Source: Niveibacterium microcysteis (GTDB lineage Bacteria; Pseudomonadota; Gammaproteobacteria; Burkholderiales; Rhodocyclaceae). From it: a stretch of 64,000 bases of DNA. Under the pieces are notes generated by a model. It made no database searches, was not told where the DNA came from, and saw only the letters and a list, made by a program, of their open reading frames with translations. Positions 8,663 through 39,985 of the stretch are shown piece by piece. How positions within the stretch are numbered: the stretch's first letter is position 1; every line of letters begins with the position of its first letter. A program made the translations under genes and the position numbers. The stretch is taken from NCBI RefSeq assembly GCF_017161445.1, contig NZ_CP071060.1:2356001-2420000 (forward strand). The letters run 5' to 3'.

Positions 8663-8689
8663 ACCTAGTCCCGACCGATCTAGTGCCAG

Positions 8690-8718
8690 AGAGCCGGCCT
8701 TTCGCCGGCTCTTTTTTT
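8690..8718 (+). terminator. Rho-independent terminator after the first polysaccharide unit
   Basis: A perfect 9-bp stem (AGAGCCGGC with GCCGGCTCT) and a five-base loop are followed by seven T residues. It lies 27 bases after the nucleotidyltransferase stop codon and separates that operon from the lipoprotein glycosidase gene. Confidence 0.93.
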
Positions 8719-8899
8719 CTGCGTTGGTGGCAGGCCGGCACTGCTATCGCGCTTGCACCAAAATCGGGCTTCATTGACGCTGTAGGTAAAAGAAGAAATC
8801 ACGCGTAGGCGAGTCTCTAAATCTCTATTGATGACTTCAGCCGTGAAGGATATTGACGTAGTCCTCAATACAGACTATCGAGCCCACGGAGCACGCGTG

Positions 8900-11041: not shown

Positions 11042-11716
11042 GGTGCGCGCTTAGTTGGGAGGATATATCGGTCCCTTTTGGTGCCGGGTCCCCCCGTCGT
11101 ATCCGCGGCGCGACTCGGAACACATCACGTCCTGCCTCGACATCGACATGATTGAGCGCGATCCAACTGCTGTCGATTAAGCGCCGTCTGCATCCTCAAC
11201 GAAGCACCGCTGAACCCGAAACGAAAAGCCTACTTTGAAATGAGAGGTCGGATCCGACGCGCCATATGGAGGTGCAGGCGGGACTCCAGCCAACGCGCTA
11301 AAGCCTCCCTGCAAAATCTCCTTAGTAGCGCCATATTCTTGGCGCTGCGGCGTACGAGGGAAAGCCCTCTGAGTGCAGGCAAAGCGGTCCGCTCGCTTAC
11401 GCGCCACCGCCCGAGAGGACACTGCAGGGCCGTATTGCCAGAATGCGCTATGGTCACCTCGTAGCCGCCAATGCGCCGCTGGATTATTCCGGGGCCAATC
11501 AACCAAACATGGGGGTGATGGACATTTGGCCGACCTCACAGGCACGGACTGGATACAACCTCGCATACATAGCTTAGGCCCGAACTGTCTCCGTGTTTGG
11601 CGTGCGGCACGGCAACCAAGCTGCGCCAAGGTAAAATCGCGGCCGATTGTCCCTAACCAGTGATCGCGCTGCTGACGCACAGCGTAGCCCCGATCTTAAT
11701 GTCTGTTGGAGTCCTG
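11042..11716. other. Intergenic region without a convincing gene
   Basis: 675 bases between the glycosidase and rfbB. Open frames exist on both strands (the longest, 11177-11680 minus, is 167 codons) but none has a recognisable domain or a good ribosome site. TAAAAT at 11632-11637 resembles a -10 element ahead of rfbB; I find no matching -35 at normal spacing. The stretch could be decayed sequence. Confidence 0.6.
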
Positions 11717-12787
11717 ATGACCATTCTCGTAACCGGCGGCGCCGGCTTTATAGGCGGTAATTTTGTCCTTGACTGGATTGCATCGACCGGTGAGTCCGTC
11801 GTCAATCTGGATAAGCTTACTTACGCAGGTAACCTCGAAACGCTGAAGTCACTGGAAAGCGACGATCGTCACACCTTCGTGCAGGGCGACATCTGCGATC
11901 GCGCGCTGATCGATTCGCTGTTTTCGACGTACAAGCCGCGGGCGATCGTGCATTTTGCCGCCGAGTCTCATGTGGACCGCTCGATTCACGGTCCCGGTGA
12001 GTTCGTGCGCACCAACGTTGACGGCACGTTCACCTTGCTCGAGGCCGCGCGTGCTTACTGGAACGGGCTCGAAGGCGAAGCGAAGGCGAACTTCCGCTTC
12101 CATCATGTTTCGACCGACGAGGTCTACGGCTCGCTCGGCCCGAATGATCCGCCCTTCACCGAGACCAACACCTACGAGCCGAACAGCCCCTATTCGGCAA
12201 GCAAGGCCGCTAGTGATCACTTGGTGCGGGCATGGCATCACACGTATGGGCTGCCGGTTACGACCAGCAATTGCTCGAACAACTACGGCCCGTATCACTT
12301 CCCCGAGAAGTTGATTCCGCTGATGATCGCCAATGCGTTGGCCGGGAAGCCACTCCCGATCTACGGTGACGGTCAGCAGATCCGTGACTGGCTCTACGTC
12401 ACCGACCACTGTAGCGCGATCCGCACGATCCTCGCCAAGGGCAAGGTGGGCGAGGTCTACAACGTGGGCGGTTGGAATGAGAAGCCGAACATCGATATCG
12501 TGAAAACGATCATCGCGCTGCTCGACGAACTTAAGCCCAGCCCCGAGGGTAGTTATGCGCGTCTGATCACCTATGTGACTGACCGCCCTGGTCACGACCG
12601 CCGCTACGCGATCGATGCCCGCAAGATCGAGCGCGACCTTGGTTGGAAGCCGGCAGAGACCTTCGAGACAGGCATTCGTAAGACAGTTCAGTGGTACCTC
12701 GACAACCAAGGCTGGGTTCAGAACGTGCTGAGCGGTGCCTACCGCGACTGGGTTGCGAAGAACTACGGCGACCGCGCGGGGGCATGA
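11717..12787 (+). CDS. rfbB: dTDP-glucose 4,6-dehydratase
   Basis: 356 residues, the standard size for RmlB. The NAD-binding motif TGGAGFIG sits at residues 5-12. The active site has [10 protein letters not shown] and the SDR catalytic pair in [24 protein letters not shown] and the C-terminal [12 protein letters not shown] are typical of the enzyme. It makes dTDP-4-keto-6-deoxyglucose, the second step to dTDP-L-rhamnose. GGAG at 11708 fits this ATG; two upstream in-frame starts lack a ribosome site. It overlaps rfbD by an ATGA junction and heads the rfbBDAC operon. Confidence 0.96.
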
Positions 12788-22448: not shown

Positions 22449-23323
22449 CTAGACAGTTTTCTGCTTGTTGAAATACCGCTGTTCGAACTCGACCGGAGAC
22501 ATGTTCTCGGCGTGACTATGCCGACGTTTCGGGTTGTAGAACAACTCGATGTAGTCGAAGACATCGCGCCGAGCGTCCTCTCGGGTCGCGTAGATCTTTT
22601 GGCGAATCCGTTCTCGTTTGAGTAGTTGGAAGAAGCTCTCTGCGACTGCATTGTCGTGGCAGTTGCCGCGCCGGCTCATGCTCCCCACAAGATTGTGGTG
22701 CCTTAGGAAGTCCTGCCAGTCGTAACTGGAGAACTGGCTACCTTGGTCCGAGTGCACGATGACGGAGGTGTCCGGCTTGCGTCGCCAGACGGCCATCAGC
22801 AACGCATTGAGTGCCAGATCCCGATGCATACGCGGCCCCATCGACCATCCAATAACTTGGCGCGAGAACAGGTCGAGCACCACCGCAAGGTAAAGCCAAC
22901 CTTCGAAGGTCCGGATGTAGGTGATGTCGGTGACCCATGCCTTGTTAGGCGCCGTGGGTGAGAACTGGCGGTCGAGCGCATTCGGATGGACGATTGCCGG
23001 TCGTCCGCCATAGTGGCCGCGCCGGCGCGAATAGCCTGTTTGCGCACGCAGCCCTTCGACCCGCATCAGCCGAGCCACCGATGCTTGCCGCATTGTTCGC
23101 CCATCTCGCGCAGATCATCATGGATCTTGCGATAGCCATACACGGCGCCCGACTCAAGCCACGCGTGCTTGATCAGCCCCAGGAGCCGACGATCCTCGCG
23201 GCTCCTAGGACTTTCGTGGCATCGACTCCACGCATAGAACCCGCTTGGATGGACGCCAATGACCTTGCACATCCGTCGCACCACGAACTCGCTTTGATGG
23301 GCCTGGATGAACGCGTACTTCAC
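22449..23323 (-). pseudogene. IS3-family transposase OrfB, frameshifted
   Basis: The reading starts MKYAFIQAHQSEF at 23323, overlapping the orfA stop. It continues through the HTH_21-like region (YGYRKIHDDLREMGEQCGKHR). A one-base deletion near 23078-23080 then shifts the frame. The rest is intact in another frame: VARLMRVEGLRAQTGY, then the rve catalytic core with WVTDITYI (first Asp), VHSDQGSQF (second Asp) and NAVAESFFQLLKRE (Glu). Family members read HRVARLMR across the break. It is inactive unless the deletion is a sequencing error or is bypassed by frameshifting. Confidence 0.88.
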
Positions 23324-24995: not shown

Positions 24996-25889
24996 TCACA
25001 CCTTACCCAAAGCGCGGGCAGCTGCTGAAGCCGCCGCCGTTCGCGTTTCCACGCCCAGCTTTTCGAAGATGTGTTCGAGATGCTTGTTTACCGTACGCGG
25101 GCTCATGCCGAGGATTTCGCCGATATCGCGATTGGTCTTCCCACGCGCCACCCACAGCAGAACTTCGCTCTCCCGCGCAGTCAGCTCGGCAGCGGCACGC
25201 TTGCTCGCGCCCGTGCCCGCGGCGGTGAGCGCGAAGACCGTGATGGCCTGTGCCGACTCACTCACTCGCCGCGCTTGCAGGGCGCCATTTGAAAGCGAAA
25301 GCGACGTGCTAGTCTGCTCGCCCAGCCCAGTCAGGAGCCCCGCCAGATGAGGCGGCATTCTGAGCCCTTCGTTGAGGTTCAAGCCCGGCTCCAGCGCGCT
25401 GAGCAGCTGCCGCGCAGCGTTGTTGCACCACAGAAGTTGCGAGGTTTCGTCCACCGCCAGCATGGCATTGCTGCTGGCGTTCACCGCCTCGCGCGTGGCG
25501 CGCACCAGGCGCGCGGTACGGGTGTGGGCCTGCAGCCGCGCGATCACTTCGGGCGGCGACACCGGCTTGGTGACGTAATCATTACCGCCCACCGCAAAGC
25601 CCCGCACGATGTGTTCGGTTTCGCCCAGGCCGGTCATGAAAATAACCGGAATGTCCTCGCTCAGATCGCGGATCCGCTCGCAGGCTTCAAAGCCATCCAT
25701 GCCGGGCATCTGCACGTCGAGCAGAATCGCTCCCGGAAGGTGTTTGGCCAGATATGCAAGCGCCAGCGCCCCGCTGGCGGCAGTGTGCACCTGAAGGCCA
25801 ACGGCCCCTAGTTCGAGCGATAGCAGTGCCAACGCATCAGCGCTGTCATCCACAAGCAGTACGTCACAGGCTTCTTCAACTGAATGCAT
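24996..25889 (-). CDS. Response regulator, receiver + PAS-like + LuxR HTH
   Basis: 297 residues. The receiver domain is about 8-125 with the phosphoacceptor aspartate in ILLDVQMPGMDG, Thr in FMTG and Lys in VTKPV. A PAS-like segment follows (about 135-215, NAMLAVDETSQLLWCNNAA). The C-terminal LuxR/GerE DNA-binding domain starts at ELTARESEVLLWVARGKTN and has SPRTVNKHLEHIFEKLGV. The ATG overlaps the 3' end of the permease-kinase gene by 14 bases, so the two are translationally coupled and form a cognate pair. The likely target is the divergent amide/urea operon. An ATG 15 codons upstream is an alternative start. Confidence 0.9.
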   Translation of the reverse strand: MHSVEEACDVLLVDDSADALALLSLELGAVGLQVHTAASGALALAYLAKHLPGAILLDVQMPGMDGFEACERIRDLSEDIPVIFMTGLGETEHIVRGFAVGGNDYVTKPVSPPEVIARLQAHTRTARLVRATREAVNASSNAMLAVDETSQLLWCNNAARQLLSALEPGLNLNEGLRMPPHLAGLLTGLGEQTSTSLSLSNGALQARRVSESAQAITVFALTAAGTGASKRAAAELTARESEVLLWVARGKTNRDIGEILGMSPRTVNKHLEHIFEKLGVETRTAAASAAARALGKV

Positions 25890-28800
25890 GGTCTTGCAAG
25901 GTCTGGCTGAGGGTTGCGGTAAGCGCGGCATCATCAGTGCCGATCAGCGCCAGGGAGCGTGCGGCCCAGGGTGCGAGGTCAGGGCTGTCGTCGCCCAATT
26001 CTTCAAGCCGCGCCCGCAACGCTCGCGGGTAGCCGCCAGCGGCCAGCGCCAGCAGTTCTCGCAGCACATCGGGGCCGGGCGGGACGATGCGTGGCGCTGC
26101 CGCCGGCGCGGCGTGCAACCACTCGATGCCCAGCGCACTGCGCACCTGTTCAAGCAGATCCGCCTCGGCCACCGGTTTGGTGACAAAGCCATTGCAACCG
26201 CTCTGCGCCCGCGCCTGCTCGGTGTTGTCATGCGCGTTGGCCGACACCATCACGATCGCGAGTGTGCTATGCCCGGCTTCGCGCAGTTGGCGGCAGATCA
26301 CCCATCCGGTGGTGTCACGCAGGCTGATGTCGAGCAGCAGAAGATCCGGCGTGCGCTCGGCCAGCACCGCAAGGCAAGCGGCGCCGCTATCGACTTCTTC
26401 GATGAGAAAGCCGAGCGGCTGCAGCATCGCGCGCAGCACGCCACGATGGGCCGCTTCATCGTCCACGATCAGCACATGCTGCCGCCGCCCAAGGTAGCCA
26501 CAGACCGGCGCAGCCAACGCACTGACTTCGACGCTCGGCAAGGTCGGCAGGTAGAGCCGCACGACGAAACGGCTCCCTTCGCCCCGCTTGCTGTAGAGCT
26601 GAATGTCACCGCCCATCAATTCAACGAGCAGACGCGTGATGGTGAGCCCGAGCCCGGTACCCTCCGCCCCCACCCGGCCGGCGCCACGTTCGAAGGGCTG
26701 GAAGATGCGCTCATGCTCGGCCGCATCGATGCCGACCCCGGTGTCGATCACCTCGATGTGCGCAATCTCGCGGCGGTAGCGCACACGCAGGCAAACCTGG
26801 CCGTGCTCGGTGAATTTGACCGCGTTGCCCAGCAGGTTGATGAGGATCTGGCGCAAGCGCTTGGGGTCGGCATGCACGCGCTGCGGCAAGTGGCCGCGCG
26901 CCTCGTAGTGAAAGCTGAGGCCGGAGCTTTCGGCCAGCGGGCGGAACATCTTGACGATTTCGGTAAAGAATTCCTCCAGGTACAGCCCTTCCTGCTCCAA
27001 CCGCAGCTTGCCCGCCTCGATGCGCGACAGATCGAGCAAGCCATCGACCAGGCTGGCGAGGTGTTCGCCGCTGCGGTGGATGGTGCTGACCGCATCACGC
27101 AAGCCGCCCGCCAGCGCCTGCTGGCGCAAGAGCACCTGCGAATAGCCGAGGATGCTGTTGAGCGGCGCGCGCATCTCGTGGCTCATGCCGGTAACGAAGC
27201 GGCTCTTGGCAAGGTTGCCGCTTTCGGCGACTTCCTTCGCTTTCTGCAGCGCGGCGTCGGTCTGGCGGTGGGCATCGATCTCGCGCTGCAAGAGCTGGTT
27301 CTGCCGATCCGATTCTTCCTGCGCGACCACCCTGCTCTCGTTCGCCAGCACCAGCCACCAAGCCGCCACCGCGGTAAGCAGGAAGATCCCGGCGAACACC
27401 TTCCAGAACAGCGGCGCGAGGTCGGCCGACACCGGGCCGCCGGGATGCAGCAACTCCTGTGCATACAAGAGCCAGAGCATGGCGCCGAACACGCAGACCA
27501 TGCCGCCAAGCACGAGCGCGAACTGCCCGACGCGACGCGCCATCGGCAGCGACACGCGATGCGGTAGCCAACCGGCCAACAGATCGGCGAGGTGTTCGTG
27601 CACCCGCGCGCCGGTCTTGCAGCGGTCGCCGCAACGCGCGTCCAGCGTGCAGCATAGCGAACAGATCGAGCCACCGTAGGCCGGACAGTGCGCCATGTCG
27701 TCCGATTCGAACTTGTTGCGGCATATCGCGCAGCGCATCACGCGGTGCCGCGGCCCGAAGTCCACCGGCGTGCGCGCAATCGTGTAACGCTGCCGCGTGA
27801 GCAGCGAAATCAGCGGCGCGGCGAGCAGCGACACCAGCAAGGCGATACCTGTGGAGGCCGGGCGCAGGCCCTCGCCGAACAGCCCCACGTAGACCGCCAC
27901 AGACAGCACCGACGCAATCACCATAGCGCCGAAACCGGAGGGGTTGATGTCGTACAGGTAGGCGCGGCGGAATTCGATGGTTCTGGGCGAGAGGCCCAGC
28001 GGTTTGCTGATCACCAGATCGGCCACCACCGCGCCGACCCAGGCCACTGCAAGGTGTGCATAGAGGCCCAGCACCTGCTCGATCGCTTCGAATACGCCCA
28101 TCACCATCAGCAGCACCGCGATCAGCACGTTGAAGGCCAGCCACACCACACGCCCCGGATGGCTGTGCGTCAGCCGTGCGAAGAAGTTGGACCAGGCGAG
28201 CGACCCGGCGTAGGCGTTGGTGATGTTGATCTTCAGCTGCGACACGATGACGAAAACGCCGGCAAGAAAGATTGCCCCCCCGTGATAGCCGACCACCTCC
28301 CGGAAGCCGATCAGGTACATCTGCATCGGTTCGAGCGCACGCGACAGTGGCATTTCGTGCTGCAAGACAAGGAAGGCCAGGAAGGCGCCGCCGACCATCT
28401 TGGCCGCGCCCATCAGGATCCAGCCCGGCCCGGCCACGATCACTGCCAGCCACCAGTGCAGCTTGCGGCCAGGCGTGGGCTCCGGCATGAAACGCAGGAA
28501 GTCCACCTGCTCGCCAATCTGCGCGATCAGCGATGCCGCCACCGTGGCTGCCGCACCGAACGCAGCCCATGAGAATTCATCGCTGCCGGCGCTGCTGCCG
28601 TTGAGCGAACTGAAGGCGACGAAGGCCTGCGGGTTCTTGATCGCCACCGCGATGAAAGGCAGGACCAGCAGCAGCAGCCACACCGGCTGGGTCCATATCT
28701 GCAGACGGCTGATCAGGGTGACGCCGTGGGTCACCAACGGCACCACGATCAGTGCACTGAGCAGGTAGCCCACGCCGCGTGGCAGGCCAAACCAGAGCTC

Positions 28801-29244
28801 GAAGGCCTGCGCCATGATCGCCGCTTCGATGGCAAAGAAGATGAAGGTGAAGCTGGCGTAGATCAGCGAGGTGATCGTGGAGCCGAGATAACCAAAGCCC
28901 GCACCACGCGCCAGCAGATCCATGTCGAGCCCGTGGCGCGCAGCGCGATACGCAATCGGCAGACCGGTGAGGAAGATCACCAGGCTGACCACGGCGATCG
29001 CCCACATTGCGTTGGTGAAACCGTAGCTCAGGGTGATGGCTGCACCAATCGCCTCCAGTGCAAGGAAGGACACTGCACCAAAAGCGGTATTCGCGACGCG
29101 GAACTCGCTCCATTTTCGGAAACTGCGCGGCGTGAAACGCAGCGCGTAGTCCTCCAGCGTTTCGTCCGACACCCAGCGGTTGTAGTCCCGCCGCACCTTC
29201 ATGATGCGCTGTACCGGCTGCGCTTTGGCGACTTCCTGGTCCAC
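25876..29244 (-). CDS. NCS1 permease-cysteine cluster-histidine kinase-receiver fusion sensor
   Basis: 1122 residues from a GTG preceded by AGAGGG; an ATG 14 codons on is possible, and the open frame runs 85 codons further upstream without homology. Residues about 15-490 are a 12-helix purine-cytosine permease (NCS1) domain. About 505-545 is a cluster of nine cysteines (CAIC, CSLCC, CGDRC) like a zinc site. Two more membrane helices and a coiled coil follow. HisKA has His689 in SHEMRAPLN, a variant of the HExRTP box. HATPase_c shows the N box NLLGNAVKF, DTGVGI and GTGLGLT. A receiver (Asp972 in LLLLDISL) and a helical tail end the protein. It probably senses or transports a nitrogenous ligand and phosphorylates the downstream regulator. 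Confidence 0.88.
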   Translation of the reverse strand: MDQEVAKAQPVQRIMKVRRDYNRWVSDETLEDYALRFTPRSFRKWSEFRVANTAFGAVSFLALEAIGAAITLSYGFTNAMWAIAVVSLVIFLTGLPIAYRAARHGLDMDLLARGAGFGYLGSTITSLIYASFTFIFFAIEAAIMAQAFELWFGLPRGVGYLLSALIVVPLVTHGVTLISRLQIWTQPVWLLLLVLPFIAVAIKNPQAFVAFSSLNGSSAGSDEFSWAAFGAAATVAASLIAQIGEQVDFLRFMPEPTPGRKLHWWLAVIVAGPGWILMGAAKMVGGAFLAFLVLQHEMPLSRALEPMQMYLIGFREVVGYHGGAIFLAGVFVIVSQLKINITNAYAGSLAWSNFFARLTHSHPGRVVWLAFNVLIAVLLMVMGVFEAIEQVLGLYAHLAVAWVGAVVADLVISKPLGLSPRTIEFRRAYLYDINPSGFGAMVIASVLSVAVYVGLFGEGLRPASTGIALLVSLLAAPLISLLTRQRYTIARTPVDFGPRHRVMRCAICRNKFESDDMAHCPAYGGSICSLCCTLDARCGDRCKTGARVHEHLADLLAGWLPHRVSLPMARRVGQFALVLGGMVCVFGAMLWLLYAQELLHPGGPVSADLAPLFWKVFAGIFLLTAVAAWWLVLANESRVVAQEESDRQNQLLQREIDAHRQTDAALQKAKEVAESGNLAKSRFVTGMSHEMRAPLNSILGYSQVLLRQQALAGGLRDAVSTIHRSGEHLASLVDGLLDLSRIEAGKLRLEQEGLYLEEFFTEIVKMFRPLAESSGLSFHYEARGHLPQRVHADPKRLRQILINLLGNAVKFTEHGQVCLRVRYRREIAHIEVIDTGVGIDAAEHERIFQPFERGAGRVGAEGTGLGLTITRLLVELMGGDIQLYSKRGEGSRFVVRLYLPTLPSVEVSALAAPVCGYLGRRQHVLIVDDEAAHRGVLRAMLQPLGFLIEEVDSGAACLAVLAERTPDLLLLDISLRDTTGWVICRQLREAGHSTLAIVMVSANAHDNTEQARAQSGCNGFVTKPVAEADLLEQVRSALGIEWLHAAPAAAPRIVPPGPDVLRELLALAAGGYPRALRARLEELGDDSPDLAPWAARSLALIGTDDAALTATLSQTLQDHAFS

Positions 29245-29513
29245 CCGTAATCCCTCTGAAACGCGCGCGTCGACGCCAATGTTCACGCCGGAAGCACGCA
29301 AGCGGCGTGCCCGATTGCGTGCAGTCTGTGGCGCCGATTCTGGTGTGCGCAGTGCGTATGCGCAGTACGTCAAATGACTTATTTCGCGTCTCCGCCCCTG
29401 CTCCCAAAGTGCGTTCCAACAACGCAGCACATCACGACCGCCGCGGCGGCCAGTGCGGAACCAGAAACCCGGCTGCGTTGCTTTGAAGCCCGCGTTCATC
29501 AGGAGAGACCATC
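29245..29513. promoter_or_regulatory. Divergent control region, sensor gene / urtA
   Basis: 269 bases between two divergent operons. Besides the sigma-54 match it holds a direct repeat TGCGCAGT at 29346-29353 and 29359-29366 and the palindrome at 29410-29426. Either could bind the LuxR-type regulator. I found no good sigma-54 or sigma-70 promoter pointing to urtA. AGGAGA sits eight bases before the urtA ATG. Confidence 0.5.
29297..29312 (-). promoter_or_regulatory. Sigma-54 type -24/-12 promoter for the sensor gene
   Basis: On the minus strand the sequence reads GGGCACG-CCGC-TTGCG against the consensus TGGCACG-N4-TTGCW: only the first and last bases differ and GG/GC spacing is exact. Transcription would start near 29286, about 42 bases before the chosen GTG, which supports that start. 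A palindrome TGCGTT-N5-AACGCA at 29410-29426 lies about 130 bases upstream. Confidence 0.6.
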
Positions 29514-30773
29514 ATGCGTGACCACGCTTCGCCCAAGCCCCGATCCACCCTCCGCCGCCATCTCTTGCAGGGCATCGTCACCCTGCCGCTGATTGGTCTG
29601 TCTGCCGTAGGCCAAGCCGCGCCGCCGGCCACCGCAGTGGTGAACACGACCAAGCTGGCGGTGACCGACACCGAAGTCACCGTCGGCCAGCTTCACTCGG
29701 CCACCGGCACCATGGCGATCTCGGAAATCGGCTCGATCCAGGCCGAACAACTGGCGATCGACCAGATCAACGCGATGGGCGGCGTGCTCGGCCGCAAGAT
29801 CAAGGTGATCAAGGAAGACGGCGCATCTGACTGGCCGACCTTCGCCGAAAAGTCAAAGAAACTGCTGATCAACGACCGCGTCGCAGCAGTGTTCGGCTGC
29901 TGGACATCTGCCTCGCGCAAGGCGGTGCTACCGATCTTCGAGAAGGAAAACGGGATGCTCTACTACCCCACCTTCTACGAGGGCCTGGAGCAATCCAAGA
30001 ACGTGATCTACACCGGCCAGGAAGCGACCCAGCAGATTCTTTGGGGCCTCGACTGGGTGTCGAAGGAGAAGAAGGCGAAGACCTACTTCCTCGTCGGCTC
30101 TGATTACATCTGGCCGCGCACCTCGATGAAGATCGCGCGCAAGCACATCGAGGGCCACCTTGCCGACAGCAAGGTCGTGGGCGAGGAGTACTACCCGCTC
30201 GGTCACACCCAGTTCAACTCGCTGATCAACAAGATCAAGGCGGCCAAGCCAGACGTCATCTTCATCGCGGTGGTGGGTGGCTCGAACGTGTCCTTCTACA
30301 AGCAGCTCAAGGCTGCGGGCGTGACGGACGCGAAGCAGACGCTGCTGACGATCTCGGTCACCGAAGACGAAGTGCTGGGTATCGGTGGCGAGAACATGGC
30401 CGGCTTCTATGCCTCGATGAAGTACTTCCAGTCGCTCGACAACGCCAACAACAAGGCCTTCGTGCAGGCCTTCAAGGCCAAGTACGGCGCCAAGGCGGTG
30501 ATTGGCGATGTGACGCAGGCGGCCTACCTGGGCCCGTGGTTGTGGAAAGCAACCGTCGAGAAAGCGGGCAGCTTCGATGTCGACAAGGTCGCCGCAGCGT
30601 CCAAGGACATCGAGTTCAAGGGCGCGCCTGAAGGCTACGTGAAGATCCACGCCAACCATCACCTGTGGAGCAAGACACGTATCGGCCAGGCCCAGGCTGA
30701 CGGCCAGTTCAAGGTGGTCGCCGAGTCGCCGGACCTGATCGAGCCGAATCCTTTCCCCAAGGGTTACCAGTAA
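29514..30773 (+). CDS. urtA: Urea/short-chain amide ABC transporter binding protein (UrtA/FmdD type)
   Basis: 419 residues. A long N-terminal signal with basic residues (RRHLLQGIVTLPLIGLSAVG) directs export. The mature type I periplasmic-binding fold has EVTVGQLHSATGTMAISE, AVFGCWTSASRKAVLPIFE, LYYPTFYEG and GSDYIWPRT, the core of urea-binding UrtA and the amide-binding FmdD of Methylophilus. It captures substrate in the periplasm for UrtBC. Followed by formamidase and FmdB genes, the substrate may be formamide/acetamide rather than urea. A stable hairpin after the gene probably raises its transcript level over the permeases. Confidence 0.88.
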   Translation: MRDHASPKPRSTLRRHLLQGIVTLPLIGLSAVGQAAPPATAVVNTTKLAVTDTEVTVGQLHSATGTMAISEIGSIQAEQLAIDQINAMGGVLGRKIKVIKEDGASDWPTFAEKSKKLLINDRVAAVFGCWTSASRKAVLPIFEKENGMLYYPTFYEGLEQSKNVIYTGQEATQQILWGLDWVSKEKKAKTYFLVGSDYIWPRTSMKIARKHIEGHLADSKVVGEEYYPLGHTQFNSLINKIKAAKPDVIFIAVVGGSNVSFYKQLKAAGVTDAKQTLLTISVTEDEVLGIGGENMAGFYASMKYFQSLDNANNKAFVQAFKAKYGAKAVIGDVTQAAYLGPWLWKATVEKAGSFDVDKVAAASKDIEFKGAPEGYVKIHANHHLWSKTRIGQAQADGQFKVVAESPDLIEPNPFPKGYQ

Positions 30774-30869: not shown

Positions 30870-31784
30870 ATGGCATTCGCCGACATGCTCAACATCGGAA
30901 TGATGCAAGGCTTCGCAGGGCTTAGCCTGTTCGCGGTGCTACTGCTGATGGGCCTTGGTCTGGCGATCATCTTCGGCCAGATGGGGGTGATCAACATGGC
31001 GCATGGCGAGTTCATGACGCTGGGCGCCTACACCATCTTCCTGTTCTCCTCGCTCTCCGAGAGCTTATTCCCCCAATTCACACAAACGTATTTTCTGGTC
31101 GCCATCGTCGCGGCCTTCTTTGTCACTTTCCTGGCAGGCTGGTTCGTCGAGTGGGCCTTGATTCGCCACCTCTACAAGCGCCCGCTCGATACGCTGCTAG
31201 CCACCTGGGGCGTCTCGCTCGGCATGCAACAGTGCTTCCGCAGCTTCATCGGCCCCAAGGAAGTGAGTCCTACCCTGCCCGACTGGCTGATGGGTTCCTG
31301 GTCGCCGCATGAGGGGCTCGACATCCCGATCAACGGCCTCTTCGTGATGGCCCTGACGCTTGTCGTCACCGGCGGCATATTGCTGGCCCTCTACAAATCC
31401 CGCTGGGGCCTGCGCGTGCGGGCCACGGTTGCCAACCGCGCGATGGCCAACGCGATCGGCATCAATACCAAGAAGACCGACCGCCTGACCTATGCCATCG
31501 GCTGCGGCATCGCAGGCGTTGCGGGTGCAGCCTTCACCACGATCGGTTCGACCGGCCCCACCAGTGGTTCGCTCTACATCGTCGATGCCTTCCTGGTGGT
31601 CACCTTCGGGGGTGCTGCCAGTCTGCTTGGCACGGTGGCCTCGGCCTTCGGCATCGCGCAGATGCAATCGATCAGCGAATTCTTCATGACCGGCTCGATG
31701 GCCAAGGTGCTCACGCTAATGACCATCGTGGTGATCCTGATGATGCGGCCGCAGGGGCTGTTCGCCTCAAAGATCCGCCGCTAG
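30870..31784 (+). CDS. urtB: Urea/amide ABC transporter permease UrtB
   Basis: 304 residues of the LivH/UrtB branched-chain-type permease family with eight or so membrane helices. GQMGVINMAHGEFMTLGAY and the cytoplasmic ATPase-coupling loop (VRATVANRAMANAIGINTKK) are diagnostic. It pairs with UrtC to form the inner-membrane channel. GGGAGGT before the ATG gives a strong ribosome site. Confidence 0.9.
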   Translation: MAFADMLNIGMMQGFAGLSLFAVLLLMGLGLAIIFGQMGVINMAHGEFMTLGAYTIFLFSSLSESLFPQFTQTYFLVAIVAAFFVTFLAGWFVEWALIRHLYKRPLDTLLATWGVSLGMQQCFRSFIGPKEVSPTLPDWLMGSWSPHEGLDIPINGLFVMALTLVVTGGILLALYKSRWGLRVRATVANRAMANAIGINTKKTDRLTYAIGCGIAGVAGAAFTTIGSTGPTSGSLYIVDAFLVVTFGGAASLLGTVASAFGIAQMQSISEFFMTGSMAKVLTLMTIVVILMMRPQGLFASKIRR

Positions 31785-31844: not shown

Positions 31845-33020
31845 ATGAACAAGATCAAGGCATTCATCGATCAACGTGGCCTCGGCAGTTTCCTCATACT
31901 CGCCGCACTGATCCTGGTGGTGTTCCCGCTTGCGATGGACATCTTCCGGCTCAATCTCGTCGGCAAATACCTCACCTACGGCTTCGTCGCCATTGGCCTT
32001 GTGATGTGCTGGGGTTACGGCGGCGTGCTGAGCCTCGGCCAGGGGGTGTTCTTTGGCCTCGGGGGCTACGCGATGGCGATGTTCCTCAAGCTCGAAGCGT
32101 CCGACCCAATCAGCACGAAGATCCAGTCCACACCGGGCATCCCGGACTTCATGGACTGGAACCAGCTGACCGCGCTGCCGCTGTGGTGGACCCCGTTCAA
32201 GTACCTGCCGTTTGCGCTGATCGCGGTGCTGCTGGTGCCCACGCTACTCGCCTTCGTGATCAGCTTTGCGATGTTCAAGCGCCGCGTCGGCGGGGTGTAC
32301 TTCGCCATCATCACGCAGGCGGTGGCATTGATCCTCTCGGTGCTGATCATCGGCCAGCAGGGTTACACCGGCGGGGTAAACGGCATCACCGATCTGAAGA
32401 CCCTGCTCGGCTGGGACATCCGCACCAACAGCGCCAAGTACATCCTCTACTTCGCCAACGCCGCGTTGCTGCTCGGCTGCATCTACCTTTGCCTGTGGGT
32501 GCAGAAAAGCAAACTCGGCACGCTGTTGCTCGCGATGCGCGACAAGGAAGACCGGGTTCGTTTCTCCGGTTACGACGTGTCGATGTTCAAGGTGTTCGCC
32601 TTCTGCCTCGCCGCGATGCTCTCGGCGATTGGCGGCGCGATGTTCACGCTGCAGGTCGGCTTCATGTCACCGAGCTTCGTCGGCATCGTCCCGAGCATCG
32701 AGATGGTGATCTTCGCCGCAGTGGGTGGGCGCATGTCACTGATCGGCGCGGTGTACGGCGCCTTGCTGGTGAACTTCGGCAAGACATATTTCTCCGAGAG
32801 CTTCCCCGACCTCTGGCTCTTCCTCATGGCGAGCCTCTTCATCGGCGTCGTGATGGCCTTCCCGAACGGACTGGCCGGCGTTTACACCAGCCACGTCAAG
32901 CCCTGGCTCGCGCGCCGCAAGGCCACTCAGATCAGATCACAGGCCCTTGCGGAGCCGCCGGCAGACAGCGCGCCGCAAACCGAAGAGGCCGAAATCCCCG
33001 GCCTGATCCGCGCCACCTGA
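31845..33020 (+). CDS. urtC: Urea/amide ABC transporter permease UrtC
   Basis: 391 residues of the LivM/UrtC family. It has LGLVMCWGYGGVLSLGQGVFFGLGGYA-type helix 2-3 sequence, GYTGGVNGITDL in the periplasmic part and RDKEDRVRFSGYD in the ATPase-coupling loop. A basic, alanine-rich tail of about 35 residues follows the last helix. It overlaps nothing; urtD starts 31 bases later. Confidence 0.9.
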   Translation: MNKIKAFIDQRGLGSFLILAALILVVFPLAMDIFRLNLVGKYLTYGFVAIGLVMCWGYGGVLSLGQGVFFGLGGYAMAMFLKLEASDPISTKIQSTPGIPDFMDWNQLTALPLWWTPFKYLPFALIAVLLVPTLLAFVISFAMFKRRVGGVYFAIITQAVALILSVLIIGQQGYTGGVNGITDLKTLLGWDIRTNSAKYILYFANAALLLGCIYLCLWVQKSKLGTLLLAMRDKEDRVRFSGYDVSMFKVFAFCLAAMLSAIGGAMFTLQVGFMSPSFVGIVPSIEMVIFAAVGGRMSLIGAVYGALLVNFGKTYFSESFPDLWLFLMASLFIGVVMAFPNGLAGVYTSHVKPWLARRKATQIRSQALAEPPADSAPQTEEAEIPGLIRAT

Positions 33021-33051: not shown

Positions 33052-33795
<744 letters not shown>

Positions 33796-33810: not shown

Positions 33811-34500
33811 ATGCTCAACGTATCCGATCTCGTCGTGTGTTACGGCCAGAGCGAAGCCCTGCATGGCATCTCGTTCGAAGCCAACAAGAACGAAACCGTG
33901 GCGATCATGGGCCGCAACGGCATGGGCAAGACCACGCTGTTCAAATCGCTGATGGGCGTGCTGCCCACCCGCAGCGGCTCGATCCAGGTGGCGGGGAAGG
34001 AAGTCTCGAAAGACGAGAGCTTCCGCCGCGTCGCCAAGGGCATCGCCTATGTGCCGCAAGGCCGGATGATCTTCCCCACTCTCTCTGTCGAAGAAAACAT
34101 CCAGACCGGGCTGGAGAACGCCGCCATCAAGAAGGTGCCGGACGAGATCTATGCGCTCTTCCCGGTGTTGTGGGAGATGCGCCGCCGCAAGGGCGGCAAC
34201 CTTTCCGGCGGCCAGCAGCAACAGCTGGCGATCGCACGCGCGCTCGTCACCGATCCGAAGGTGCTGCTGCTCGATGAACCGACCGAGGGGATCCAGCCTT
34301 CGATCATCAAGGACATCGCCAAGGCGCTCAACGAGATCCGCAAGATGCGCGAGATCACGATCGTCGTCTCGGAGCAGGTACTGAGCTTTGCGATGGACGT
34401 GGCCGACCGCCTCTTCGTCATCGAGGGAGGGCGCCTGGTGCACGAGAGCCCGCGCGCCAGCACCGACGTTGCCCAAATCAAGCAGTTCCTGTCCGTTTAG
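33811..34500 (+). CDS. urtE: Urea/amide ABC transporter ATP-binding protein UrtE
   Basis: 229 residues, LivF-type. Walker A GRNGMGKTT, signature LSGGQQQQLAIAR and Walker B VLLLDEPTEGIQPS. The sequence CYGQSEALHGISF near the N-terminus is typical of UrtE. It is 15 bases behind urtD and completes the five-subunit importer. Confidence 0.92.
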   Translation: MLNVSDLVVCYGQSEALHGISFEANKNETVAIMGRNGMGKTTLFKSLMGVLPTRSGSIQVAGKEVSKDESFRRVAKGIAYVPQGRMIFPTLSVEENIQTGLENAAIKKVPDEIYALFPVLWEMRRRKGGNLSGGQQQQLAIARALVTDPKVLLLDEPTEGIQPSIIKDIAKALNEIRKMREITIVVSEQVLSFAMDVADRLFVIEGGRLVHESPRASTDVAQIKQFLSV

Positions 34501-34589: not shown

Positions 34590-35819
34590 ATGCCTGAAAC
34601 ACTCATCAAAGTCGACCTGAAGCAGTCGCCCTACGAGAACGAGAACATCCACAACCGCTGGCATCCGGATATCCCGATGGCCTGCTGGGTCAAGCCCGGA
34701 GACGACTTCGTGCTGGAAACCTACGACTGGACCGGTGGCTACATCCAGAACAACGACAGCGCAGACGACGTGCGCGATGTGGATCTTTCCACGGTGCACT
34801 TCCTCTCTGGCCCGGTCGGGGTGCACGGCGCCGAGCCGGGCGATCTGCTGGTGGTCGAGCTGCTCGACATCGGCGCCAAGCAGGACAGCCTGTGGGGCTT
34901 CAACGGCTTCTTCTCGAAGAACAACGGCGGCGGCTTCCTCGTCGATCACTTTCCGCAGGCGCAGAAGTCGATCTGGGACATCGAGGGCATGTTCACCAAG
35001 AGCCGCCATGTGCCCGGTGTGCGCTACGCGGGCCTGATCCACCCTGGCCTGATCGGCTGCCTGCCCGACCCGAAGATGCTGGAAACCTGGAACACGCGCG
35101 AAGTGGACTTCATCGCCACCCAGCCCGATCGCGTGCCGCCGCTCGCCAACCCGCCGTTCGCCAAGACCGCGCACGCCGGCAAGGCCAAGGGCGAGGTGGC
35201 CGCGAAGATTGCCGCCGAAGGCGCGCGCACCGTGCCGCCGCGCGAACACGGCGGCAACTGCGACATCAAGGATCTGTCGCGTGGCTCGAAGATCTTCTTC
35301 CCGGTCTACGTCGAAGGCGCGGGTCTCTCGGTCGGCGATCTGCATTTCTCGCAGGGCGATGGCGAGATCAGCTTCTGCGGCGCGATCGAAATGGCCGGTT
35401 GGGTGCACATGAAGGTCTCCCTAATCAAGGGTGGCATGGCCAAGTACGGCATCAAGAACCCGATCTTCAAGCCCAGCCCGATCACGCCCAAGTACGACGA
35501 CTACCTGATCTTCGAAGGCATCTCGGTCGACGAGCAAGGCAAGCAGCACTACCTCGATGTGCATGTTGCCTACCGCCAGGCCTGCCTCAACGCGATCGAG
35601 TACCTCAAGAAGTTCGGCTACTCCGGCGCGCAGGCGTACTCGATCCTCGGCACCGCGCCCTGCCAGGGCCACATCAGCGGCGTCGTCGATATCCCCAACG
35701 CCTGCGCCACGCTGTGGCTGCCGACCGACATCTTCGAGTTCGACATCAACCCGAGCGCAGCCGGGCCGGTGAAGTACCTCGACGGTTCGATCGACATGCC
35801 GATCTCGCCCGACCTTTAA
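34590..35819 (+). CDS. fmdA: Formamidase (FmdA/AmdA family)
   Basis: 409 residues, the usual length of the acetamidase/formamidase family. Recognisable blocks are WHPDIPMACWVKPGDDF, GPVGVHGAEPGDLLVVELLD, FPGLIHPGLIGC-type (AGLIHPGLIGCLPDP), PPREHGGNCDIKDL and FSQGDGEISFCGAIEM. It hydrolyses formamide (and sometimes acetamide) to ammonia and the acid in the cytoplasm. It follows the importer after a strong AGGAGGTG ribosome site, so transport and hydrolysis are coupled, as in the fmd locus of Methylophilus methylotrophus. Confidence 0.94.
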   Translation: MPETLIKVDLKQSPYENENIHNRWHPDIPMACWVKPGDDFVLETYDWTGGYIQNNDSADDVRDVDLSTVHFLSGPVGVHGAEPGDLLVVELLDIGAKQDSLWGFNGFFSKNNGGGFLVDHFPQAQKSIWDIEGMFTKSRHVPGVRYAGLIHPGLIGCLPDPKMLETWNTREVDFIATQPDRVPPLANPPFAKTAHAGKAKGEVAAKIAAEGARTVPPREHGGNCDIKDLSRGSKIFFPVYVEGAGLSVGDLHFSQGDGEISFCGAIEMAGWVHMKVSLIKGGMAKYGIKNPIFKPSPITPKYDDYLIFEGISVDEQGKQHYLDVHVAYRQACLNAIEYLKKFGYSGAQAYSILGTAPCQGHISGVVDIPNACATLWLPTDIFEFDINPSAAGPVKYLDGSIDMPISPDL

Positions 35820-35879: not shown

Positions 35880-36206
35880 ATGCCTCTCTACGCCTACGAG
35901 TGCCCGGACTGCGGCGGTTTCGAGACCCTGCGCAGCATCGCCAGCCGGGACGCGCCCACCTTCTGCCCGCGCTGCGGTACACGCGCCTCACGGGTGCAGA
36001 CCCTTTCCGCGCTATCGCTGATGGACAGCAATACCCGCAGCGCCCACGCCACCAACGAGCGCGCGCGCCACGAACCCAAGCGATCCAGTACGCATGTTCA
36101 CGGGCCGGGCTGCGGCTGTGGTAGCGGCATCAGCAAGAGCACCGCAAAAGCGCCCGACGGTAGTAAATCATTCCCGGGAAAACGCCCTTGGATGATCAGC
36201 CACTAG
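35880..36206 (+). CDS. fmdB: FmdB-family zinc-ribbon protein
   Basis: 108 residues. The N-terminal zinc ribbon MPLYAYECPDCGGFE...CPRCG (CPDC and CPRC pairs) is the FmdB/CxxC_CXXC_SSSS signature. The remainder is polar and ends in a second small Cys/Gly patch (GPGCGCGSG). The family name comes from a putative positive regulator of formamidase in Methylophilus, but biochemical function is not established. It is the last gene of the urt-fmd operon. Confidence 0.88.
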   Translation: MPLYAYECPDCGGFETLRSIASRDAPTFCPRCGTRASRVQTLSALSLMDSNTRSAHATNERARHEPKRSSTHVHGPGCGCGSGISKSTAKAPDGSKSFPGKRPWMISH

Positions 36207-37177: not shown

Positions 37178-38251
37178 TTACTTCGGCACTGAGCCTTCCA
37201 CGCCTTCAACGTAGAAGTTCATCTTCGCCAACTCGCTATCCGGCAACGACTTGCCAGCAGCAACGAACTCCTTGCCAGACTGGTCCTTCAGCGGGCCGGT
37301 GAAGGGGTGCAACGTACCGGCCTTGATGCCGTCGCGGCGATCTTCGGCGAGCTTCTTGACGTCCGCCGGCACGGCCGGGCCAAACGCTTCGATGTTCACC
37401 GCACCCTGCTTCACGCCGTACCAGATGGGCGTCGGCTTCCAGGTGCCGGCCATGACCTTCTCGACCGTCTCGTTGTAGATCGTGCCCCAGTGCAGGACTG
37501 AGGCGGCCAGGTGGGCCTTGTCGCCGAACTTGGTCATGTCCGAGTCCCAGCCGAAGGCATAAACGCCCTTCTCTTTCGCAGCCTGCACGATGGCCGGCGA
37601 GTCGGTGTTCTGCATCAGCACATCGACGCCTTGCGCGATCAAGGTCAGTGCAGCTTCACGCTCCTTGCCCGGATCGAACCAGGTGTTCACCCACACCACG
37701 CGGGTGGTCACGTTCGGGTTCACGCTGCGCGCGCCGATGGTGTACGCGTTGATGTTGCGGATCACTTCCGGGATCGGGAACGAGCCCACCACACCCAGCT
37801 TGCCGTTCTTGGTCATCTTGCCGGCCACCACACCCAGCATGTAGGCCCCTTCATAGGTGCGCACATCGTAGGTGCCAAGGTTCTTGCCGGTCTTGTAGCC
37901 CGTCGCATGCATGAAGACCGTCTTCGGGAAGGCCTTCGAAACTTTCTCCATCTGGTTCATGTACCCGAACGACGTGGCGAAGATCACCTTGGTGCCCTTG
38001 CTCGCCAAGTCGCGGAACACGCGCTCCGAGTCGGCCGTTTCCGGCACGTTCTCGATTCCCTGTGTCTTCACCTTGTCGCCGAACTTGGCGTCGACCTCCT
38101 TGCGGCCCACGTCATGCGAATAGGTCCAGCCGTGATCGCCGGTCGGGCCGATGTAGACGAAGCCGGCCTGCAAAGGCTCGGCCGCGTGCGCAGCACTACT
38201 GATACCCAGGGCCAGCGTGACGCCAGCCACAAGACACTTGAATCGGGACAT
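37178..38251 (-). CDS. BMP-family ABC transporter binding protein (PnrA-like, purine block)
   Basis: 357 residues. A cleavable signal peptide ends ...SSAAHA-AEP. The mature protein has AGFVYIGPTGDHGWTYSHD, FATSFGYM, GTYDVRTYEGAYMLGVVAGKM, VVGSFPIPEVIRNINAY and WYGVKQGAV, the BMP/PnrA family of purine nucleoside receptors. It should deliver a purine (nucleoside or base) to the permeases encoded across the divergent promoter after xdhC. It is separated from its membrane partners by the xdh genes, an unusual split. It is transcribed alone with a terminator behind it. Confidence 0.9.
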   Translation of the reverse strand: MSRFKCLVAGVTLALGISSAAHAAEPLQAGFVYIGPTGDHGWTYSHDVGRKEVDAKFGDKVKTQGIENVPETADSERVFRDLASKGTKVIFATSFGYMNQMEKVSKAFPKTVFMHATGYKTGKNLGTYDVRTYEGAYMLGVVAGKMTKNGKLGVVGSFPIPEVIRNINAYTIGARSVNPNVTTRVVWVNTWFDPGKEREAALTLIAQGVDVLMQNTDSPAIVQAAKEKGVYAFGWDSDMTKFGDKAHLAASVLHWGTIYNETVEKVMAGTWKPTPIWYGVKQGAVNIEAFGPAVPADVKKLAEDRRDGIKAGTLHPFTGPLKDQSGKEFVAAGKSLPDSELAKMNFYVEGVEGSVPK

Positions 38252-38521
38252 TGAACGCTCTCCTGTTGGAATTTCGCCGCCGGTCCCGTGACCGGATCGC
38301 GGACTGGAATCGACTGTATCGACTCGTCGCCGCGCAACCCATCCCGCAGCGCTTATGAGCGGTATTCGTCCAACGCAGGTCGCACGCTCGAAGCGCTACC
38401 GCCAGACCTTCATAAGCGCAGGCGGATAACCCCTATCCGCCTTGCCCGGCTTCGCACAGCCAGCGCACCTGATAACTTCGAATCACCCCGGCGCACATGA
38501 GCTTGCGCGAGAGAAAACACA
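38252..38521. promoter_or_regulatory. Divergent control region, BMP gene / xdhA
   Basis: 270 bases. A perfect inverted repeat GGCGGATA-ACCCC-TATCCGCC lies at 38421-38441. A second, wider pair GCGCTTATG (38349-38357) and CATAAGCGC (38411-38419) brackets 53 bases. These are good candidates for operator sites of a purine-responsive regulator. I see no convincing sigma-54 match. Confidence 0.5.
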
Positions 38522-39985
38522 ATGACCGCACGACCGATCCAGTTCTATTTCCGCGGCGCTGTCCAACAAATCAGCGGCAAACCGACCACCCGCAGCGTGC
38601 TGCAGTGGCTGCGTGAAGACGCCTGTGCCACGGGCACCAAGGAAGGTTGCGCGGAAGGCGACTGCGGTGCCTGCACGGTGGTGATCGGCGAACGTGATGA
38701 CAGCGCACCCGGTGGGCTGAAGCTCACCGCCGTTAACGCCTGCATCCAGTTTCTGCCCACGCTGGACGGGAAGGCCCTGTTCACCGTGGAAGACCTCGCC
38801 GACGGCGGCGACCTGCACCCGGTTCAGCAAGCCATGGTTGATTGCCACGCGTCGCAGTGCGGTTTCTGCACGCCCGGCTTTGCAATGAGCCTGTGGGCCG
38901 ATTACGAAACGCGCTCCGGCACGCGGACCCGCGAACAGACGCTCAGCGTGCTCTCGGGCAACTTGTGCCGATGCACCGGCTACCGGCCAATCATCGACGC
39001 CGCGACAGCGGCCCATGCGAGGCCGCGCGTAGCCATGGACCGCGCCCCGGTGCGCGCTGCGCTCGACTTGCTCGCCGCCCTGCCCGCACTTGAATACCAG
39101 AGCGACCACACGCGCTTCTTCGCCCCGCGCACCGTCGATGAACTTGCAAGCACCTATCTCGCTCGACCGAGCGCGAGGCTGCTCGCCGGCTCCACCGACA
39201 TCGGGCTCTGGGTCACCAAGCAAATGCGCGACTTGCCGGATCTGATCTACCTCGGTGCCGTAACCGAACTGCGCACGATCACGCGCGACGATGATCAACT
39301 GGTGATTGGCGCAGGCGCGACGCTGACCGAGGCCTTCGCCGCACTGGTCGCGGCGAATCCCGCCTGGCAAGAACTGGCCGAGCGATTCGCATCGATGCCG
39401 ATTCGCAATGCCGGCACCTTGGGCGGCAACATCGCCAATGGCTCGCCCATCGGCGATTCGATGCCCGGCTTGATCGCGCTCGGCGCGAGCGTGTTGCTGC
39501 AACGTGGCGACGCGACGCGTGAGATCGCGCTGGAAGACCTCTACCTCGGTTACCAGAAGTCAGCGCTGCAGGCGGGCGAATTTGTGCGCGCGATTCGCGT
39601 GCCCTGCGGCCCTGCAGCACCCACGATGTTCCGTACCTGGAAGGTCAGCAAGCGCGCCGATCAGGACATCTCCGCCGTCTGTGCCGGCATCGCCGTAAGC
39701 GTGCGCGACGGCCTGATCGAGTCCGCACGTGTCGCCTTCGGCGGCATGGCCGCGACACCCAGCCGTGCACCGCGTTGCGAAGCCGCACTGCTTGGCCAGC
39801 CCTGGTCGGCCGAGTCGGTACGCGCAGCAATGCTGGCGCTCAGCGCCGACTACATGCCGCTCACCGACATGCGCGCCACCGCCAATTATCGCAACGCCAC
39901 CGCACGCAACCTGCTGTGGCGCTTCTGGCTGGAGACCGCGGCCCCAGCGACAGCACCAACCCGACTCGCTGAGGTCTCAGCATGA
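38522..39985 (+). CDS. xdhA: Xanthine dehydrogenase small subunit
   Basis: 487 residues. Two [2Fe-2S] clusters are visible: the plant-type one in GCAEGDCGACTVV and the second in CHASQCGFCTPGF with CRCTGYRP. The FAD-binding domain follows from about 190 (RLLAGSTDIGLWVTK, RNAGTLGGNIANGSPIGD). It passes electrons from the molybdenum site to NAD+. It has the usual size of bacterial XdhA and overlaps xdhB by four bases. Confidence 0.95.
   Translation: MTARPIQFYFRGAVQQISGKPTTRSVLQWLREDACATGTKEGCAEGDCGACTVVIGERDDSAPGGLKLTAVNACIQFLPTLDGKALFTVEDLADGGDLHPVQQAMVDCHASQCGFCTPGFAMSLWADYETRSGTRTREQTLSVLSGNLCRCTGYRPIIDAATAAHARPRVAMDRAPVRAALDLLAALPALEYQSDHTRFFAPRTVDELASTYLARPSARLLAGSTDIGLWVTKQMRDLPDLIYLGAVTELRTITRDDDQLVIGAGATLTEAFAALVAANPAWQELAERFASMPIRNAGTLGGNIANGSPIGDSMPGLIALGASVLLQRGDATREIALEDLYLGYQKSALQAGEFVRAIRVPCGPAAPTMFRTWKVSKRADQDISAVCAGIAVSVRDGLIESARVAFGGMAATPSRAPRCEAALLGQPWSAESVRAAMLALSADYMPLTDMRATANYRNATARNLLWRFWLETAAPATAPTRLAEVSA

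Follow-up and report, generated by a model that had tools for sequence, protein, structure and literature searches.

Fusions of a transporter domain to a histidine kinase that works with a paired response regulator are known from CbrA, CrbS and RpuS, the SLC5-STAC kinases. CbrA is reported to both transport and signal (PMC7096432, PMC13022988), and CrbR is described as another LuxR-type regulator with an inverted-repeat operator (PMC5715377). Ks-Amt5 is reported to bind but not translocate NH4+, and in the part of that source available to us its response regulator is called yet to be identified (PMC5764959). The fmdCABDEF genes of Methylophilus methylotrophus are reported to be induced by formamide and urea; the accessible part of that account lists a putative positive regulator and names no sensor kinase (PMC10781810). 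A hybrid histidine kinase and a LuxR gene are reported beside a second urt operon in Ectopseudomonas (PMC13296017). Our literature search, made mostly outside subscription papers and partly on incomplete texts, found no description of an NCS1 kinase or of the operator presented below.

Here we analyzed a 64,000-nucleotide stretch of the Niveibacterium microcysteis genome (contig NZ_CP071060.1, positions 2,356,001 to 2,420,000; the window), in which an NCS1-like transporter domain is fused to a hybrid histidine kinase. We consider it likely that this fusion is a membrane receptor kinase for urea or short-chain amides, built on a repurposed NCS1-type transporter module and acting through the coupled LuxR-type regulator.

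Organization of the fusion gene and its neighborhood

The features of the locus, in window coordinates, are as follows.

24996..25889, minus strand: response regulator, receiver - sub-threshold PAS - LuxR/GerE (Pfam; 14-bp overlap with the fusion)
25876..29244, minus strand: NCS1-like/Cys8/hybrid histidine kinase fusion, 1122 aa (uninterrupted frame, domain profiles and structure model)
27775..29157, minus strand: NCS1-like transporter domain, residues 30-490
27619..27732, minus strand: Cys8 cluster, residues 505-542, C-x2-C-x11-C-x7-C-x2-CC-x5-C-x3-C (alignments)
27325..27549, minus strand: two further predicted helices ahead of the kinase, residues 566-640 (structure model)
27010..27210, minus strand: HisKA, residues 679-745 (Pfam)
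26548..26868, minus strand: HATPase_c, residues 793-899 (Pfam)
26143..26475, minus strand: receiver domain, residues 924-1034 (Pfam)
29366..29381, no strand assigned: predicted response-regulator operator TACGTCAAATGACTTA, 1 mismatch (motif search; family-wide pattern)
29514..30773, plus strand: urtA-type amide/urea binding protein (TIGR03407, 523.6 bits)
30870..31784, plus strand: urtB (TIGR03409)
31845..33020, plus strand: urtC (TIGR03408)
33052..33795, plus strand: urtD (TIGR03411)
33811..34500, plus strand: urtE (TIGR03410)
34590..35819, plus strand: fmdA formamidase (NF045496, 762.5 bits)
35880..36206, plus strand: fmdB-type zinc-ribbon protein (PF09723, TIGR02605)

The fusion frame starts with GTG and is open upstream as far as 29499. 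Its HisKA, HATPase_c and receiver domains score far over the Pfam cut-offs and lie in one chain, which defines a hybrid histidine kinase. A structure model of residues 1-660 begins with a transporter made of helices, goes on to a small cysteine domain rich in beta structure and ends in helices 566-599 and 609-659, in line with the two extra membrane helices that the initial annotation of this DNA had placed before the kinase. That annotation had also coupled the fusion to a LuxR-type regulator and set it opposite an amide/urea importer-formamidase operon, and both proposals hold: the receiver-LuxR gene follows the fusion directly, with overlapping ends, and the profile-identified urtABCDE-fmdA-fmdB genes are divergent from the fusion-regulator pair. 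A scan of 28900-29700 for sigma-70 promoters and terminators found none. Farther out, an integrase-core (rve) transposase-type frame lies downstream of the regulator (22449-23093). The same genome encodes a second, paralogous fusion with 60% identity (L063, G000:C1:517001-537000, at ~8421-11858), which has urea-type urt genes of its own nearby.

The initial annotation allowed for an assembly or frameshift artefact that joins two genes, an explanation that we regard as practically dismissed. At one locus from a metagenome-assembled genome (MAG; L035) the two halves do occupy separate overlapping frames; against this, all 44 of 44 order-level matches have a long open frame of at least 1127 aa, and the closest named relative, from Niveibacterium sp. 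24ML, is the same fusion at 95%. Fusion residues 1-640 match at least 7999 database candidates at E≤0.001, HisKA, HATPase_c and receiver are all present in 115 of the 120 matches listed, and the architecture is found in Alpha-, Beta- and Gammaproteobacteria. With its 1122-aa frame intact and its architecture recurring across genomes, the single-frame fusion of transporter and kinase is real. Nor are the halves always separate and unlinked to amide genes in homologues, since fusions are recurrent and several of the unfused relatives also have amide or urea genes linked to them. The H box, SHEMRAPLN, had been singled out as special; the alignment of relatives has HEMRAP, HEMRSP or HEMRAG in the nearest kin and HELRTP in more distant rows, and we rejected the idea in favor of ordinary variation.

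The N-terminal half is a divergent NCS1 branch

The NCS1 label given by the initial annotation to the N-terminal half is not obtainable from Pfam, since PF02133 matched neither the whole protein at E≤0.1 nor residues 1-561 at E≤10, nor anything in a scan of the host genome. Within residues 1-561 Pfam gave no match at all, even at E≤10, and none between the transporter and HisKA; a PDB sequence search with the family profile also gave no match at E≤10. In contrast, a profile-profile comparison of the sensor half with NCS1 reached 98.8% over 386 columns. The SSF (SLC5/SSS) profile, used as a control, gave 0.5% probability over 50 columns, which is no match, as expected, and Pfam scans of the fusion and of its residues 1-561 contained no SSF match. 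Fold comparison identified a LeuT-type fold, with CodB and Mhp1 as the nearest solved structures. Furthermore, an unfused relative that is 43% identical (L181) scores 38.1 bits against PF02133, over a cut-off of 23.5; for two more unfused relatives (L179, L182) there is no score. As the direct score is absent from the fusion and present in the bridging relative, the kinship is transitive. Taken together, the profile comparison, the fold and the bridging relative identify the N-terminal half as a divergent NCS1 branch, so that the original label stands on these three grounds and fails on Pfam.

In CodB, Trp108 and Phe204 are reported to be the two aromatic residues that sandwich the base (PMC9379551). 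By alignment, the TM3 position, F136, is aromatic in 254 of 268 sequences and leucine in 14, and the TM6 position, I240, is isoleucine or valine in 263 of 268. The TM6 aromatic of the nucleobase sandwich is thus gone, and for this reason we did not file the domain as a nucleobase symporter. Replacement of the TM6 aromatic in Mhp1 is reported to have had little effect on uptake (PMC4195764), which makes its loss weak evidence about the ligand. Pocket residues E140, Q242, E245 and N343 are invariant in the family alignment, as are dozens of other residues of the transporter half, many of them polar. An invariant lysine, K338, aligns near the Na2-site Ser/Thr on TM8, at a placement made ambiguous by a one-residue gap. 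Together, K338 and the loss of the TM6 aromatic weakly argue against a classical Na+/nucleobase symporter and leave room for other transport. We also computed candidate positions for amide-versus-urea specificity (such as 146, 236, 243 and 337), which are confounded by phylogeny.

A conserved eight-cysteine domain follows the transporter

The initial annotation described a nine-cysteine metal-type cluster. A conserved cluster of metal type is indeed present, with eight cysteines and not nine: cysteines 505, 508, 520, 528, 531, 532, 538 and 542 each occur in 36 or 37 of the 37 rows covering the cluster, while C584 varies in the same alignment, and the nine-cysteine version was rejected. Within one clade of unfused relatives, 119 of the 120 listed also keep the Cys8 domain. 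The unfused relative from Klebsiella keeps cysteines 505, 508, 528 and 531 and has lost 520, 532, 538 and 542, and the Acinetobacter unfused protein, read by eye, has the same pattern. One cysteine of the eight is kept in the Tsukamurella and Arthrobacter relatives; the Streptomyces relative keeps five and fits a two-site pattern less neatly. The patterned loss across L179, L181 and L182 suggests two metal sites, one of them dispensable. From this correlated loss we infer that Cys8 probably comprises two predicted four-cysteine metal sites.

A model of the isolated domain (pLDDT 73) weakly resembles RING, FYVE and ZZ two-zinc fingers. Among the matches listed in searches with Cys8 of PHROGs, Pfam, PDB sequences and folds, all were weak or chance-like resemblances, cross-brace zinc fingers included. 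One further genome (G038) gave a match to the cysteines only, at a contig edge.

The module is linked to urea and amide genes

The sample of 250 genomes from the order contains 44 copies of the module, of which 33 lie within 15 kb of a UrtA gene (0.57 expected). FmdA is found in 28 of the 42 genomes that have the module and in 7 of the 208 that do not; these sequences are related by descent, so that Fisher and permutation figures overstate their independence. These counts supply the phylogenetic profile of the fusion versus urtA-fmdA that the initial annotation had suggested, and they favor the association. Among the remaining 11 of the 44 modules, two face urease genes (L066, L147), L148 sits on a urt contig that is truncated, another copy is 15.7 kb from UrtA, and seven are near no recognized urea or amide gene. 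One of these seven, the orphan fusion L140:8273-11659, adjoins genes that by eye resemble nitrogenase nifHDK.

The association is weaker in the class-wide sample, where, of the 16 regions that have a full module, 9 also contain urt, fmdA or urease genes; the other seven (L067, L068, L070, L074, L075, L076 and L080) contain none of these genes. In a set of 38 loci of the family, urt genes are present in 31 (30 divergent, and L035 on the same strand), the other seven having at most ~5 kb of sequence upstream of the fusion. Where betaproteobacterial loci are long enough to show it, fmdA accompanies urt; in gammaproteobacterial loci urease genes come after urt (L078, L079 and, read by eye, L019). 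In 20 regions that we chose from the 66 places listed, urt or fmdA is beside the module in 19, and the twentieth (L154) has an amidase-signature amidase. On a quick tree with long branches flagged, the amide/urea label needs 4 switches over 60 rows; 19 of 93 rows are without such a label, some of them on short contigs. In other hosts the fusion-regulator pair faces urease genes, urt-urease genes, or an unfused version of the transporter module itself.

Module matches occur in 42 of the 250 genomes sampled from the order, 17 of the 274 from the class (G120 having only a distant NCS1-like protein) and 52 of the 398 from the phylum. They also occur in 531 plasmid records, some of them chromosome-sized, of which 342 are from Klebsiella; 524 of the 531 cover at least 80% of the query.

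A shared palindrome precedes many of the urea and amide genes

The motif TACGT-N6-ACGTA emerged from the upstream regions of the window and 26 loci, and is exact in 18. In its longer form, TACGTCA-NN-TGACGTA, the palindrome is present in 43 of 58 loci at a distance of 56-190 bp ahead of urtA, porin, fmdA or amiE; this count includes the window and the 26 loci in which it was found. When one mismatch is tolerated, 43 of 83 modules have a copy in the 1.5 kb upstream. A further 26 sites include 15 that fall 59-119 bp before matches to urtA, porin, fmdA or amiE, at promoters mostly not used in finding the motif. Among 300-bp upstream regions it is present in 49 of 117, 38 of them exact, against a mean of 0.46 and a maximum of 5 regions for permuted half-sites (n=59); the 117 include many fmdA and amiE regions internal to operons.

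On a Klebsiella plasmid an exact copy lies in the interval that separates urtA from the fusion (L177:9867), on Sinorhizobium pSymB another precedes urtA, and the urtA near the paralogue in the host genome has a one-mismatch copy ~100 bp upstream. The Tsukamurella region contains no copy. Across the host genome the motif count is 5 versus 8 for the control, and is thus not above it, so that support for the operator comes from the position of its sites and not from their number.

Unfused relatives and other fusions

All 120 listed relatives of an unfused query end 0-24 residues past the last cysteine, and many of those named are from acidophile genera. Three genomes from a single genus, of which one matches Acidihalobacter prosperus, have the kinase pair divergent from an unfused module heading fmdA-fmdB-aliphatic amidase, and no Urt was found at these three loci. 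An Acinetobacter record likewise has the kinase pair divergent from an unfused copy of the transporter module. In Tsukamurella an unfused gene precedes a zinc-ribbon gene and fmdA, and a single opposing gene intervenes. The annotation of the Arthrobacter and Streptomyces records has no urea or amide gene near the unfused relative. Mycobacterium smegmatis is reported to have consecutively numbered putative cytosine permease and formamidase genes, both up on nitrogen starvation (PMC4222082); this permease may belong to the same family. The Klebsiella unfused relative (L181:6971-8578), annotated as a cytosine permease, lies directly after ureG and is a candidate urea permease.

Between the fused sequences and one large unfused clade, near-fixed core differences include S59A, F60Y, L63D, A141G, A346S and A350S. 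A141G and A346S hold in 7 of 7 further unfused rows, and Y60/D63 in 6 of 7.

The NCS1-Cys8 module is fused variously to hybrid kinases, to a PAS-PAS kinase (L068) and to PAS-GGDEF-EAL (L067); neither of the two latter loci has urea neighbors in the regions fetched. The PAS-GGDEF-EAL fusion (L067:7848-11519) suggests control of c-di-GMP by the same kind of ligand. Cyanobacterial modules, from the sequences read, are fused to kinases with a different H region. In an Azoarcus MAG the module is joined directly to a receiver and a weak LuxR match, with no kinase (L030:3000-6299); L032 resembles it and stops early.

On a Klebsiella pneumoniae conjugative IncFIB/IncFII plasmid (L177:3897-13369), a fused relative is divergent from urtABCDE-formamidase. 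A Klebsiella CG307 urea locus has been described as UrtABC/AmiF; the text available contains none of the terms histidine kinase, two-component and LuxR (PMC13060141). The plasmid locus is probably this UTS locus.

Discussion

The linkage, the phylogenetic profile and the shared operator support the earlier proposal of a nitrogen-source sensor tied to an amide/urea operon. We propose that urea or an amide would bind the NCS1-like pocket, and that a conformational change would run through the cytoplasmic, probably two-metal, Cys8 domain and the two extra helices to the kinase. The phosphoryl signal would be carried by HisKA-HATPase-receiver and the overlapping receiver-LuxR product, with a flow and polarity that we infer. 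The LuxR protein would bind TACGTCA-NN-TGACGTA between the divergent genes and control, most likely activate, urtABCDE-fmdAB.

The serious alternatives are a non-transporting receptor and a transporting transceptor, of which Ks-Amt5 and CbrA, respectively, are the reported examples that may serve as analogues. That the NCS1-like half carries urea or an amide across the membrane, and that transport drives signaling as in CbrA, is conceivable and in our judgment somewhat doubtful. In clusters for formamidase and urease, unfused relatives occupy the slots expected of a transporter, and they have the same invariant pocket residues; CbrA offers a precedent for doing both. The fused set nevertheless differs from the large unfused clade at near-fixed TM1, TM3 and TM8 positions, as if transport had been tuned away, and Urt importers adjoin most fused copies in the order sample. 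K338 points the same way, at its ambiguous placement near the Na2 site, except that the unfused relatives have it too.

The two remaining readings concern what is sensed. Metal or redox input through Cys8, with the NCS1-like half a mere anchor, would explain why nearly every fused sequence covering the cluster keeps all eight cysteines; we think it unlikely, because the cluster is just as well kept in the large unfused clade, the many invariant polar residues of the transporter half suit more than an anchor, and the recognized partner genes of the module are urea and amide genes. A purine or nucleobase sensor, suggested by the NCS1 label and by xanthine-dehydrogenase-type genes starting at 38.5 kb, is less probable still. 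The window does hold a Bmp/PnrA-type binding protein and a xanthine-dehydrogenase-type flavoprotein gene a few kb past fmdB (37178-39985), yet such neighbors are not conserved by the fusion (XdhA/XdhB in 2 of 39 loci, weakly; Bmp in 0 of 39), and the family has I or V in place of the TM6 aromatic of the nucleobase pocket.

Beyond the urea/amide receptor kinase proposed for the window, we lean slightly towards a more general view, in which NCS1-Cys8 is a portable urea/amide recognition module. It would serve as a stand-alone permease by urease or formamidase genes or, once a small number of near-fixed core positions had changed, as the input part of histidine kinases and GGDEF-EAL proteins, in a membrane receptor family that also controls the Klebsiella plasmid urt-formamidase locus. 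The module family offers a candidate receptor, regulator and operator in one package, and its natural pairs of receptor and presumed permease, with few differing core residues, make the step from transporter to receptor directly testable. It also points to the regulator adjoining the Klebsiella plasmid locus and, downstream of the Klebsiella urease genes, to an unfused protein that is a candidate urea permease.

Compared with the NCS1 transporters CodB and Mhp1, the sensor half is 16-17% identical, is without the TM6 aromatic, has the TM3 tryptophan mostly changed to phenylalanine and a lysine near the cation site, and is extended by the Cys8 domain and the kinase. The locus resembles fmdCABDEF of M. 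methylotrophus in combining a formamidase with an amide/urea importer. Like CbrA, CrbS and RpuS, the protein joins a transporter domain to a histidine kinase with a paired response regulator; unlike them, it has an NCS1-type and not an SLC5/SSS transporter, urea/amide partners and a different operator sequence, and its Cys8 domain occupies the place between transporter and kinase that STAC has in CbrA. With Ks-Amt5 it shares the recruitment of a nitrogen-source transporter fold as kinase input, the fold being Amt in the one and NCS1 in the other. The fusion adds the NCS1 type to the transporter-kinase fusions known from CbrA and Ks-Amt5.
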